From Sphingobium lignivorans (lineage in GTDB: Bacteria; Pseudomonadota; Alphaproteobacteria; Sphingomonadales; Sphingomonadaceae), in contig NZ_JACHKA010000001.1 in assembly GCF_014203955.1 (NCBI RefSeq), positions 868,001 to 932,000 of the forward strand: a stretch of DNA of 64,000 bases. Reading direction: 5' to 3'. Position numbers and translations under genes: made by a program. Positions 39,652-43,854 of the stretch are shown piece after piece. Every line of letters starts with the position of its first letter. Position 1 is the stretch's first letter. Under the pieces are notes generated by a model. That model was not told where the DNA came from and did no database searches. It saw only the letters and a list, made by a program, of their open reading frames with translations.

Positions 39652-39684
39652 CCTTTGTGACGATTTTATTGCGCTTTTGTGACA
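39652..39684 (-). promoter_or_regulatory. Pho box of three 11-bp repeats upstream of pstS
   Basis: Reading on the minus strand, TGTCACAAAAG, CGCAATAAAAT and CGTCACAAAGG are three contiguous 11-bp units in the phase of PhoB half-sites (7 bp plus 4 A/T-rich bp). The outer two are strong. The element overlaps the last codons of phoR and lies about 60 bp before the pstS start, so pstS-phoB probably has its own PhoB-dependent promoter. Confidence 0.65.
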
Positions 39685-40961
39685 TCTGCGACGGGTGCAT
39701 TCAAAGTTTCGCTGTCGGTCCTCACCGGATGGTCGCCGGGGGGCGCGGCAAATCGCGGTAATTCGACCCGAACCGTCGTGCCGATCCCGACCGTGCTTTC
39801 GAGGTTCAAAACCCCTCCATGCCGTTGAACGATATGCTTCACGATGGCGAGGCCCAGACCCGTTCCTCCCATCGCGCGGCTGCGACTCGAGTCGACACGG
39901 TAGAACCGCTCGGTGAGCCGGGGAAGATGCTCGGGCAGAATGCCATCCCCCTGATCGCTCACGCGCAATTCCACCATGTCCCGCTCGATCGGCTGGACGC
40001 TGACAGTGATCGGCGTGCCGGGGCTGCCATATTTGGCGGCGTTGCTGATGAGATTGTGAAGGAGCTGGCTGAGCTGCGCGCGATCCCCCCTGACAAGCGG
40101 CAGGGCCGGGTCGACGTCGATCACGACGTCCTGCCCGCGCTTGTTCTGACCCTGGCGGAAGACGGCCGCCACTTCCTCGACCAGCGATTGCAGCGCCACG
40201 GGCTGATCGGGCAATCGATATTTGTCGGCCTCGATGCGGGAGAGGGACATCAGGTCGTCGACCAGCCGCTGCATCCGCCGCGCTTCGCCGTCCATGATGG
40301 TGAGGAACCGCTCGCGCGTGGCCTGATCTGCCCCGGCAACCGGGTCGCGGAGCGTTTCGATGAAGCCGAGGATGCCGGCGAGCGGCGTGCGCAGCTCATG
40401 GCTGGCATTCGCCACGAAGTCGACGCGCATGCGCTCGGTGGCCTGCCGCCCGCTCTGGTCGAACAGCATCACCAGCAGGCGCTGTCCCGTGATCGGCTGG
40501 ATGTCGAGTTCCCAGCTCTGCTCGGCGGCGCCGAGGCCCACGATCTCGATCCGCGCCGGTCCCGTCGTGGCCCGGGCGCCCGCCAGCAGGTCGATCGCCG
40601 CCGGATGGCGCAGCGCGAGTCGAACGTCCTGGCCCAGGATATGGCGGCCCAGCAGCGCGAGCCCGGCTTCATTGCAGCGCTCGATGCGTCCAGCGTGCAC
40701 GATGAGCGAGGGATGGGGCAATGCGCGCAACAGGGCGTCGATGTCGTCCAGCTCGGTCCCGCCCTTGGATGCCGCGGGCATGCGGACAGCCGTCGAGACC
40801 GTCCGGCGCTCGACGGCGTCGAACAACATGGCGACCCCGAACAGACCGCCGACGGCGCAAACCAGTGTCGCTTCCCAGCTGTTGGTGATCAGAAAGACGA
40901 GAATGGCTGCCGCAGTCCCGGAAAGGCACAGGGTCCAGATCGATCGGTCGATACGGCTCAT
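39666..40961 (-). CDS. phoR: Phosphate regulon sensor histidine kinase
   Basis: PhoR phosphorylates PhoB under phosphate limitation. The 431-residue protein has two N-terminal membrane helices (about residues 10-45), a PAS-like region (IDALLRALPHPSLIVHAGRI), a HisKA domain with the phospho-acceptor His188 in ANASHELRTPL, and an HATPase_c domain (NLISNAAKYGSPGT, DQGDGILPEHLPRL, GGTGLGLAIVKHI). The start at 40961 precedes the first helix. It leads the pst genes and is divergent from the Tat-signal protein gene. Confidence 0.93.
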   Translation of the reverse strand: MSRIDRSIWTLCLSGTAAAILVFLITNSWEATLVCAVGGLFGVAMLFDAVERRTVSTAVRMPAASKGGTELDDIDALLRALPHPSLIVHAGRIERCNEAGLALLGRHILGQDVRLALRHPAAIDLLAGARATTGPARIEIVGLGAAEQSWELDIQPITGQRLLVMLFDQSGRQATERMRVDFVANASHELRTPLAGILGFIETLRDPVAGADQATRERFLTIMDGEARRMQRLVDDLMSLSRIEADKYRLPDQPVALQSLVEEVAAVFRQGQNKRGQDVVIDVDPALPLVRGDRAQLSQLLHNLISNAAKYGSPGTPITVSVQPIERDMVELRVSDQGDGILPEHLPRLTERFYRVDSSRSRAMGGTGLGLAIVKHIVQRHGGVLNLESTVGIGTTVRVELPRFAAPPGDHPVRTDSETLNAPVADVTKAQ

Positions 40962-41049: not shown

Positions 41050-41478
41050 ATGAGCGAGAGCAACCGGCCGGAGTCCCCGGTTCAGCCCGCGCAGGTGGCG
41101 GGCGACGGCGAGGCCGGGGCCACGTCGAGGCGGCAATTGCTGCGCCTGGGCGCCGCGGCGGGGACCGTCGTGCTGACCATACAGCCGGGCATTGCCCAGG
41201 CCGCGACCTCGGTGCTCACCTGCACCATTCCCGTGCCGGACCCGGCAAGAGCGGGGCAGGCGATCGCGCCGGACGGGACCACCGTCCCGCGCGGCACCTC
41301 CGGTGCCTTTCCCGGCGGGCGTTCCTTCACGGGAGAAGATGTGCGGTCGGGTCTTCGCGGCGGCAATCTGCCCGGAACCGGTTATGAGGAAGGCCAGGCC
41401 TATCTCAATTACATCCGTCGTCTGCGCCATGGCCGGAGCGGCTTCACCTGCTATGCGTCGCTGATGGCCGCCCGCTAG
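41050..41478 (+). CDS. Small Tat-signal protein at head of HPr-rel-A locus
   Basis: This 142-residue protein has a twin-arginine signal (SRRQLLRLGAAAGTVVLTIQ, cleavage near AQA at about residue 52). The mature domain of about 90 residues is Gly/Arg-rich with two Cys (VLTCTIP and GFTCYAS). I do not recognise a named family. The ATG at 41050 follows GGCGAAAGC. It precedes, on the same strand, a PqqD-like protein, an HprK-related kinase and a nucleotidyltransferase, so it is a candidate target of that system. This is inference from position only. Its stop codon lies inside the left arm of the palindrome at 41475-41622. Confidence 0.7.
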   Translation: MSESNRPESPVQPAQVAGDGEAGATSRRQLLRLGAAAGTVVLTIQPGIAQAATSVLTCTIPVPDPARAGQAIAPDGTTVPRGTSGAFPGGRSFTGEDVRSGLRGGNLPGTGYEEGQAYLNYIRRLRHGRSGFTCYASLMAAR

Positions 41479-41622
41479 GGCGGATCGCCATTCAGATGAT
41501 GGCGTGGCGAAAATGGTGGTTTTTCGGGACCCGGCGCGCAGCGTACTCAAGGTACGTGAGCACCGGAAGACCGGAAAACCGCCATTTGCAGGCCGCCAGC
41601 GCTGAATGTCGATCCGCCCTAG
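41475..41622. repeat. 148-bp palindromic (MITE/REP-like) element
   Basis: The outer arms (41475-41495 and 41602-41622) are 21 bp, inverted, and match at 20 of 21 positions. Inner segments are also complementary (GGTGGTTTT against AAAACCGCC, and GTAC near both sides of the centre), so the whole element can fold into one long imperfect hairpin. It carries no open frame. It resembles non-autonomous palindromic repeats of sphingomonad genomes, but no second copy is in this window. Confidence 0.7.
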
Positions 41623-41645
41623 GCCGGGCAGAGAGGATGGTGGGG

Positions 41646-41936
41646 ATGATCTACCGGGCGGAGCCGCCGGGCCAGATCCTGCTCGAAAGCCTTGGGCCTA
41701 TCGACGCTCTTTTCCACAAGCGCTCGGGCGCCACGCATCTGGTGGCGGCGCCGGTCCCGCAGATCCTCGCCGCGCTTGCGGAAGGCCCGGCGGATATCGA
41801 TGTCTTGCTGGCGCGGCTGGCCACCCGGTTCGATCTGGAGGGGGAGGCGGTTGCCGTGCGGGCTGCCTTGCAGGCGCGCCTTGCGGAGCTCGCGGCACTC
41901 GGCCTGGTCCATGGCGACCGGCCGGCGGCGGGCTGA
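41646..41936 (+). CDS. PqqD-like protein of the HPr-rel-A system
   Basis: The 96-residue protein has the winged-helix RRE-like pattern of PqqD (RSGATHLVAAPVPQILAALAEGPADIDVLLARLATRFDLEG), which binds leader peptides in several peptide-modification systems. An HprK-related kinase follows 8 bp downstream and a nucleotidyltransferase after that, matching the HPr-rel-A gene set named in protein-family databases. The ATG at 41646 has GAGAGG nine bases upstream; ATG 41637 is an alternative. The true partner peptide is unknown. Confidence 0.8.
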   Translation: MIYRAEPPGQILLESLGPIDALFHKRSGATHLVAAPVPQILAALAEGPADIDVLLARLATRFDLEGEAVAVRAALQARLAELAALGLVHGDRPAAG

Positions 41937-41944
41937 CGGCGGCA

Positions 41945-42814
41945 GTGCGCCACGAGATCGCTCTTGGCATCGGTCCGGTCGTTTTTCGGGTCGGCTCGGC
42001 CTGGCCTGAGCCGGTCCGGCAACTCGCGGCGCTATATGCCGCTTATCCGCCGGTCGATCCTGCCCGGCGCGTGCCCGATTTCACCGTGCGGCTGCAGCCG
42101 ACCCGTCCCTGGCGACGGCTGATCCGGCCTTCCGTCTTCGTGGCCGGCGATCACTGGCTGCCCGACGCTGCCCCGATGGCGCTGGCGCATGGCCTGCTGG
42201 CGGCCGAGATGGGCATGAATCTGCAGATGGCGCTGGGATGGCGGCGGCATGTCCTCCTCCATGCGTCCTGCGTGGAGAAAGAGGGGCGCGCCATCGTCAT
42301 CACCGGCGAGTCCGGCAGCGGCAAGTCCACGCTCGCGGCGCTGCTGGGGGAGCGCGGCTGGCGCCTGATGGGCGACGAGTTCGCCTTGCTCGATCCCGCG
42401 AGCGGCGCCGTGTTCGGCTTCCCGCGCCTCATCAGCCTGAAGAACGAAGCCATCGACGTCGCCACCGCCGGCATCGATCCGCGGCGGCTCGGGCCGCGCC
42501 TTGAGGGAACGGCGAAAGGCACGATCCGCCATCTCGTGCCGGCGGCTGACGCGATCGCGCGCATGGCCGAGCCTGCCGAGCCCGCGCTGCTCCTCATGCC
42601 GCGCTTCGGATTCGCGGCTGCGCAGAGGCCGGTGGAGTCCGGCGAGGCCTTCATGCGGCTGACCGAAGCCTCGACCAATTATGTCGCGCTCGGCGAAGCG
42701 GGCTTCAGGGCGCTGACCCGCTTCGTGCGCCATGTGCCTGCCGTTGCGCTCGATTATCTGGACAGCGCGACGGCGCTCGACCAGGTGGATGCCCTGTGGA
42801 GCGGGCTCGCATGA
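41945..42814 (+). CDS. HprK-related kinase A
   Basis: The 289-residue protein resembles HPr kinase/phosphorylase in its C-terminal half. It has HASCVEKEGRAIVITGESG with a Walker A GESGSGKST at about residues 121-129, then an acidic strand GDEFALLDP. The N-terminal half is different from HprK. It probably phosphorylates a protein or peptide rather than HPr. The likely start is a GTG at 41945. It is flanked by the PqqD-like gene and overlaps the nucleotidyltransferase start by 4 bp, suggesting tight co-expression. Confidence 0.85.
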   Translation: MRHEIALGIGPVVFRVGSAWPEPVRQLAALYAAYPPVDPARRVPDFTVRLQPTRPWRRLIRPSVFVAGDHWLPDAAPMALAHGLLAAEMGMNLQMALGWRRHVLLHASCVEKEGRAIVITGESGSGKSTLAALLGERGWRLMGDEFALLDPASGAVFGFPRLISLKNEAIDVATAGIDPRRLGPRLEGTAKGTIRHLVPAADAIARMAEPAEPALLLMPRFGFAAAQRPVESGEAFMRLTEASTNYVALGEAGFRALTRFVRHVPAVALDYLDSATALDQVDALWSGLA

Positions 42815-43854
42815 GGGCGGCGTGGCTGCTTGTCGCCGTGCTGCGCGATCCGGCGCTGGCGGAGCGTTTGGAGGCTCGTGACTGGACGGCGCTGCTCACC
42901 GCAGCCCGGGCGGAGCGCCTGATCGGCACGCTGGCCGGGAAGCTGGATGGCCTCCCTGTGCCCGAGGACGTCGCCGCCATTCTCGCCGATGCGCGCGCGG
43001 ATGCACTGCGCGACCGGCAGCAGGCCTTGTGGGAAATCGATCGCGCCATGGCCGCGCTCGCGCCGCTCGAATGCCCGGTCGTGCTGCTGAAGGGCAGCGC
43101 GTTCGTGGCGGCGGGCCTGCTTGCGGGGCAGGGCCGAGCGATCGGCGATCTCGACATTCTCGTGCCGCGCGACCGGCTGGATGCGGTCGAGGCGGCGCTG
43201 CTGGCGGCCGGCTGGGAATGGGTGAAGCCGGACCCCTATGATGATGCTTATTATCGGCGATGGATGCATGAGTTGCCGCCGCTCATCCATGTCGAGCGGG
43301 ACAGGATGATCGACGTTCACCACACGATCCTGCCCCTCACTGCCCGGCGGCGGCCGGACGCGGCGGGGCTCATCGCGCAGGCGGTGGACCTGCCCCGCTC
43401 AGGCGACGGAATTTCGCCCGTGCGCGTGCTGCGGGTGGAGGAAATGCTGTGCCATGCCGCCGCGCACCTGCTCGCCGACGGGGACCTGACCGGCGGGCTG
43501 AGAAACCTCTGGGATATCCATTGCCTCATCATGGAGCATCGCGAGGCGCCGGGCTTCTGGGAAGCGCTGGCCGCCCGTGCCGCGCATCATGATCTGACCG
43601 GTCCCGTGCGGCGCGCGGCGCGTCTTTCCGCGCGCATCTTCGGGACCGACATAACCCGGTCATGGCGCCAGAGCCGCTTCACGGACAGCCTGTTCGCTGC
43701 CCGGCTCACCTGCCGGACGGGATGGGGCACCGAGAGCCGCCCCCTCCTGCGACAGGGCTTCTACATCCGCTCGCACCTGCTGCGCATGCCGCCGCTCATG
43801 CTCGCCCGGCACCTCTGGACGAAGTGGCGCAAGGGATATCGCCCGGCCGGCTGA
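42811..43854 (+). CDS. Nucleotidyltransferase family protein of the HPr-rel-A locus
   Basis: The 347-residue protein has the nucleotidyltransferase core VVLLKGSAFVAAGLLAG with IGDLDILVPR (GS and DxD motifs near residues 95 and 113-115). Helical regions include HELPPLIHVERDRMIDVHHTI. Relatives occur in lasso-peptide and other modification clusters. It overlaps the kinase by 4 bp. It may add a nucleotidyl group to the same target as the kinase, which is inference from context. Confidence 0.82.
   Translation: MRAAWLLVAVLRDPALAERLEARDWTALLTAARAERLIGTLAGKLDGLPVPEDVAAILADARADALRDRQQALWEIDRAMAALAPLECPVVLLKGSAFVAAGLLAGQGRAIGDLDILVPRDRLDAVEAALLAAGWEWVKPDPYDDAYYRRWMHELPPLIHVERDRMIDVHHTILPLTARRRPDAAGLIAQAVDLPRSGDGISPVRVLRVEEMLCHAAAHLLADGDLTGGLRNLWDIHCLIMEHREAPGFWEALAARAAHHDLTGPVRRAARLSARIFGTDITRSWRQSRFTDSLFAARLTCRTGWGTESRPLLRQGFYIRSHLLRMPPLMLARHLWTKWRKGYRPAG

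Follow-up and report, generated by a model that had tools for sequence, protein, structure and literature searches.

A 64,000-nucleotide stretch of the Sphingobium lignivorans genome, here called the window, carries at positions 41050-43854 four co-directional genes on the + strand. They encode, in order, a protein with a twin-arginine translocation (Tat) signal, a PqqD-like protein of the RRE type (recognition element of ribosomally synthesized and post-translationally modified peptides, RiPPs), an HprK-related kinase and a nucleotidyltransferase. The initial annotation, made from the sequence of this stretch, had proposed this four-gene set and had remarked on two Cys in the Tat-signal protein, a clear Walker A motif in the kinase and a 4 bp overlap of the last two genes. 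All four open reading frames (ORFs) are present and each of these details was borne out, the overlap being ATGA. The features are as follows:

41050..41478, + strand: Tat-signal protein, the proposed substrate (142 aa; RR signal at residues 26-51; Cys58 and Cys134 in the mature part)
41446..41463, + strand: C-terminal motif T133-C134-Y135-A136-S137-L138 of that protein, with Ser137 as proposed acceptor (T133, C134 and S137 unchanged in all 36 aligned rows)
41637..41936, + strand: PqqD-like RRE protein (TIGR04353), the proposed substrate-presenting chaperone (99 aa; 67.6 bits)
41945..42814, + strand: HprK-related kinase A (TIGR04352) with a GTG start and Walker A GESGSGKS (223 bits)
42811..43854, + strand: PF14907 nucleotidyltransferase (347 aa; 171 bits)

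The kinase scored 223.2 bits against TIGR04352 (HprK_rel_A; cut-off 200) and the PqqD-like protein 67.6 bits against TIGR04353 (PqqD_rel_X; cut-off 35), so that both NCBIfam components of the HPr-rel-A system are present. The nucleotidyltransferase scored 171.2 bits against PF14907 (gathering cut-off 31.2) and has the G-[S/A], DxD and D residues. Active-site residues were intact: H108, K129, D146 and E147 of the kinase (numbered by translation P0003, which begins two codons upstream of the GTG) were each present in 60 of 60 sequences, comprising the window and 59 others, while K94, G95, R109, D113, D115 and D168 of the nucleotidyltransferase were each found in 45 of 45, the remaining loci being too short or yielding no such ORF. 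The predicted model of the kinase (predicted local distance difference test, pLDDT, 91) matched phosphoenolpyruvate carboxykinase (PEPCK) along its full length (Z 16.5, 277 residues), with HprK chains matching less well (Foldseek E 3.5e-5, below rank 34). This indicates that the catalytic domain is predicted to have the HprK/PEPCK fold, to which the Walker A, His and Asp also correspond. Unlike HprK/P, however, the kinase fell far below the cut-off of the HprK equivalog model TIGR00679 (27.2 bits, cut-off 240) and has a different genomic partner.

Linkage of the four genes was followed in the best 80 of 295 kinase relatives in genome contigs, among which the closest named relative was Sphingobium sp. 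SYK-6 (kinase 97 % identical). The PqqD-like gene and an adjacent nucleotidyltransferase gene were present in all 80 loci and a Tat homologue in 76, lying <500 bp from the PqqD-like gene in 54 and farther away in 22. The loci without a local Tat gene were L075 (at a contig end), L085, L098 and L099. All four of these genomes had a Tat homologue elsewhere, as did G274 and G328 (the latter at E 1e-7 only); for L075 it was at the end of another contig, while in G328 the PqqD-like gene follows the Tat gene and the kinase and nucleotidyltransferase genes are elsewhere. Co-occurrence of the genes thus persists without linkage. Among 149 Sphingomonadaceae genomes with a completeness of at least 95 %, the kinase was found in 48 and the Tat profile in 47, all of them within the kinase-positive 48 (Fisher P 3e-38, a value that is overstated because the genomes are related and not independent). 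Five of the 47 Tat matches were weaker than 1e-10 (G328, G719, G848, G784 and G840). The initial annotation had asked whether the Tat gene co-occurs with the other three genes across sphingomonads; its presence beside them in 76 of 80 loci, with the kinase in 47 of 47 Tat-positive genomes, indicates that it does, so that the failure of linkage which the annotation had named as a refutation is not seen, and makes the Tat protein as candidate substrate the best-supported reading. Second, weaker kinase matches were seen in ORFs of 385-403 aa in G003, G010, G011 and G023; these may be lasso-type kinases such as SyanK, although this is a guess.

A kinase above the cut-off was present in 61 of 398 Pseudomonadota genomes. 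The DNA around it was read in 60 genomes besides the window, of which two (G233 and G249) were dropped with the kinase at a contig end. Of the 58 testable loci, 52 had an RR-signal ORF next to the kinase; in 51 it lay upstream in the same orientation and in one (G197) on the opposite strand. Five partners (G396, G197, G301, G377 and G075) were chosen by eye where the regular expression had missed them or taken another ORF, and two of its picks (G082 and G274) were discarded as wrong. The lax Tat expression was rejected as evidence by itself, as it also matched 228 of 2,219 control ORFs; the C-terminal motif is the evidence instead. In 38 of 40 wider loci a nucleotidyltransferase scored at least 175 bits.

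The motif lies close to the end of the Tat protein. G131, F132, T133, C134 and S137 were invariant across an alignment of 36 sphingomonad Tat proteins, all 36 of which have the motif, and mean pairwise identity was 0.82 over the last 16 residues and 0.93 over residues 131-138. Across the phylum, where the mature parts of the partners otherwise differ widely, the pattern [ST]-C-[hydrophobic]-x-S-[hydrophobic] occurred no more than 45 residues from the C-terminal end in 40 of 52 partners, compared with 5 of 2,219 other ORFs from the same loci, a contrast that is descriptive because the pattern was framed after the proteins had been seen. The commonest forms were SCWTSF, TCFASL and SCWGSF, with 1-16 residues beyond the Ser. 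A Ser in this position resembles the acceptor that HprK-like kinases use at the C-terminus of lasso peptides, and Ser137 is accordingly placed as the predicted acceptor from the sequence pattern. One partner is very short: L229:6094-6339 encodes an RR-signal protein of 82 aa that ends in ASCLDSFNGL and is nearly just signal and motif. A second class of RR partners, which lack the C-terminal SC(W)xS motif, was seen at L174, L176, L177, L182, L184, L187-L190, L193 and L222.

The same data bear on an alternative in which the motif Cys or Thr, or some internal residue, is the first site of the Tat protein to be modified, and the C-terminal Ser is conserved because it helps the protein to fold or positions a disulfide. 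In all 36 sphingomonad rows Cys134 and Thr133 are just as constant as Ser137, the number of Cys is even (2, 4, 6 or 8) in 43 of 53 partners, as in secreted disulfide proteins, and the 11 second-class partners have no such Ser. Nevertheless, where the peptide target of an HprK-like kinase is known, the residue used is Ser in the available portions of the published work (PMC9266682, PMC13381572); in a linear polyphosphorylated peptide (LPP) the substitutions S3T and S3Y were not modified (PMC13381572), and one partner, G162, keeps the Ser (AAYTSI) while losing the Cys. We consider this alternative unlikely.

The signal of the Tat protein, read by eye, consists of R27-R28, a hydrophobic stretch and AQA at residues 49-51. 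It scored just under the cut-off of TIGR01409 (16.4 bits vs 16.7) and below that of PF10518 (15.1 bits vs 22.7). RR-x-hydrophobic was present in 53 of 53 partners and AxA in 42 of 53, counts that are not independent of selection, since the partners were partly picked for RR. Mean pairwise identity among Tat proteins was 0.16 in the n-region, 0.66 in the RR-h-c part and 0.61 in the mature part, while 27 sequences of PstS, the single control protein, gave 0.40 for the signal and 0.65 for the mature part. The RR-h-c signal is therefore conserved like the mature part and unlike the PstS signal, which fits a signal that is read by a partner; it looks to be under constraint, although one control protein is a thin basis for this. 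The predicted model of the Tat protein (pLDDT 61) had no PDB match at Foldseek E 10 or better, a sequence search gave none better than E 0.07, and viral models yielded nothing useful; such missing matches say nothing about novelty of the fold.

Related chemistry has been published, as far as the available portions of the sources extend. HprK-like kinases that occur with an RRE and a nucleoside triphosphate (NTP) transferase gene (poly)phosphorylate peptide Ser residues in paeninodin and LPP (PMC9266682, PMC13381572). PadeK and ThcoK, the kinases listed with paeninodin, phosphorylate a C-terminal Ser, and in pseudomycoidin the phospho-Ser is hexosylated by the nucleotidyltransferase homologue PsmN (PMC9266682). 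For the LPPs of Bacillota, LppK phosphorylates one Ser, with LppB (an RRE protein) and LppN (an NTP transferase) encoded in the same cluster amid polysaccharide genes (PMC13381572). The statement in the initial annotation that the chemistry is not described thus does not stand in that form, given the work on paeninodin, pseudomycoidin and, in 2026, LPPs (PMC9266682, PMC13381572); the chemistry is not entirely new.

The locus shares with the phosphorylated lasso peptides (paeninodin PadeK/ThcoK, Sphingobium yanoikuyae SyanK and pseudomycoidin PsmK/PsmN), as described in the available part of PMC9266682, an HprK-like kinase, a Ser towards the C-terminus and a homologue of the nucleotidyltransferase that elaborates phospho-Ser. 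It differs in that the His-Lys-Asp-Asp of the lasso kinases has Glu in place of the second Asp in 60 of 60 kinases, and in that the predicted substrate is a protein of ~90 residues after cleavage. No lasso macrolactam synthetase (C) or B2 peptidase lies between the four genes or is conserved beside them, where only phoR/pst and a GT4 glycosyltransferase gene (22 loci) recur, although no genome-wide search for lasso cyclases was made; the view that this is not a standard lasso cluster therefore stands. With LPP it has in common, in the accessible text of PMC13381572, an HprK-like kinase, a discrete RRE, an NTP transferase, the lack of a macrolactam cyclase and nearby polysaccharide genes. That text describes LPP systems with an archaeal-type signal peptidase, an MsbA-like exporter and the leader motif YxxPxV, and places the Ser where the core begins, whereas the present partner carries an RR signal and has its Ser close to the C-terminal end; neither an archaeal-type signal peptidase I nor an MsbA-like exporter was found in the operon or among the conserved ORF clusters read from 81 loci.

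Open-licence PMC papers (preprints not included) yielded neither a Tat-exported, phylum-wide version of a kinase-RRE-nucleotidyltransferase system nor the names TIGR04352, TIGR04353, 'HprK-related kinase A', 'HPr-rel-A system' and NTP_transf_5. The NCBIfam definition of HPr-rel-A names the kinase and PqqD-like parts; the present analysis adds the Tat partner with its C-terminal motif and the pairing with the nucleotidyltransferase. The novelty lies in the putatively Tat-exported partner, in the Ser motif towards its end and in a co-occurrence that is nearly perfect; the kinase-RRE-nucleotidyltransferase logic was already published. The initial annotation had mentioned neither this motif nor the occurrence beyond sphingomonads, nor the association with phoR/pst in this group and with XrtA exopolysaccharide genes in others. 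For genes that are widespread and named but lacked a known substrate, the analysis offers a concrete candidate substrate, a candidate acceptor residue and a genome-wide pattern of co-occurrence.

These comparisons suggest, with modest confidence, that the operon is probably a peptide- or protein-modification system akin to the modules of kinase, RRE protein and nucleotidyltransferase that serve phosphorylated lasso peptides and LPPs, with a dedicated Tat-exported substrate. The PqqD-like protein would bind the conserved signal or leader part of the precursor in the cytoplasm, and the HprK-like kinase would phosphorylate the Ser near the C-terminus (Ser137 in T-C-Y-A-S-L). The nucleotidyltransferase could then put a nucleotidyl or sugar-phosphate group onto that phosphate, after which the finished protein would exit through the Tat pathway with its signal cut after AQA, and its two Cys may form a disulfide. 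Tat carries proteins completed in the cytoplasm and would therefore suit modification before export. If this reading is right, the chemistry of peptide-tailoring kinases would extend to Tat-exported proteins and be tied to surface polysaccharide.

Several observations weigh against this reading. The motif pattern was devised after inspection of the same proteins, and 12 of the 52 phylum partners lack it. One of these is G162; the other 11, a gammaproteobacterial-type set, have a different mature domain (by eye, for example, C-x-I-S-G and S-P-G-x-W stretches), so that a single acceptor rule fails to cover all partners. The Ser that LppK targets lies where the core begins and not near the C-terminus (available part of PMC13381572), and the nearest fold of the kinase, PEPCK, is that of a small-molecule enzyme. 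Tat library models seldom reach the partners (TIGR01409 2 of 53, PF10518 2 of 53; E 0.1), and because of this the prediction of Tat export rests on the RR, the hydrophobic stretch and AxA. G794, the sole exception among the 48 kinase-positive genomes, has no Tat match at 1e-5; four wider loci (G082, G129, G141 and G185) have no nearby partner; and the PqqD profile, built from sphingomonads, reached at least 17 bits in just 32 of 40 wider loci.

The conserved neighbour of the operon lies outside it, on the other strand:

39669..40961, - strand: phoR histidine kinase gene, divergent from the Tat gene

The true phoR start is likely the ATG at 40961, as the start of a longer ORF, at 41063, would overlap the Tat gene. 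In 71 of 76 loci a divergent phoR homologue lies no more than 1.2 kb from the start of the Tat gene, and phoR is likewise divergent from that gene in the six genomes in which it is elsewhere (6 of 6); pst genes cluster in 69 of 81 loci. This arrangement would fit an HPr-like phosphotransfer or a carbon/phosphate switch, in which the kinase regulates phosphate signalling with phoR. However, ahead of the Tat gene the Pho box CTGTCA-N5-CTGTCA did not stand out from shuffled sequence (77 loci), and Pho regulation of the operon was rejected although phoR is so conserved a neighbour. A regulatory HprK role was likewise rejected, a better HprK match being present elsewhere in the genome (G000:C1:1624130-1624357, 62 bits vs 24.9 for the kinase), and several other lineages have an XrtA-type rather than a Pho neighbourhood; this explanation is highly improbable. 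In 40 of 77 loci (L034-L109; shuffle mean 0.4 for the set) a TTTAC-N(6-8)-AAG element precedes the Tat gene by ~40 nt; it is absent in the window and SYK-6.

Glycan-related genes recur near the operon. An ORF cluster occupies the gap between the Tat and PqqD-like genes in 22 of 80 loci, and the member tested is a GT4 glycosyltransferase. Around 14 loci of other Pseudomonadota, the XrtA/PEP-CTERM families TIGR03108, TIGR02916, TIGR02915 and TIGR03087 each match 5 of 120 neighbour ORFs, and six ORFs of the same set match Glyco_trans_1_4. Together with the PEPCK fit of the kinase model, the GT4 gene and the XrtA/PEP-CTERM families speak for an alternative role, in which the two enzymes would modify a sugar or some other small metabolite destined for surface polysaccharide and the Tat protein would be a periplasmic accessory and not the substrate. 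Such a role accounts neither for the presence of a PqqD-like protein nor for the nearly perfect co-occurrence of the Tat protein and the motif shared near the C-terminus of otherwise dissimilar proteins, and we give it a low probability. Modification of the Tat protein itself can be extended to the same genes in a speculative and rather doubtful form: the PqqD-like chaperone would read the Tat signal and delay export until the kinase and nucleotidyltransferase have given the Ser of the C-terminal region a phosphodiester-linked group, and GT4 (in Sphingobium) or XrtA-locus enzymes would build or attach a surface glycan. The Tat protein would then be a polysaccharide-linked or -priming surface protein under a phylum-wide RiPP-like logic.

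One further feature separates the first two genes of the operon in the window:

41475..41622, no strand assigned: dispersed palindromic repeat between the Tat and PqqD-like genes, with 21-nt arms

The repeat begins directly after the Tat stop codon, and ~17 places in the genome align with it over at least 120 bases. The SYK-6 locus (L031) lacks it and shows the empty site, and CTAG at both ends of the insert suggests a 4-bp target duplication. In a genome of the same species, G835, the Tat and kinase genes lie 145 bases closer together, which makes the insertion look recent.

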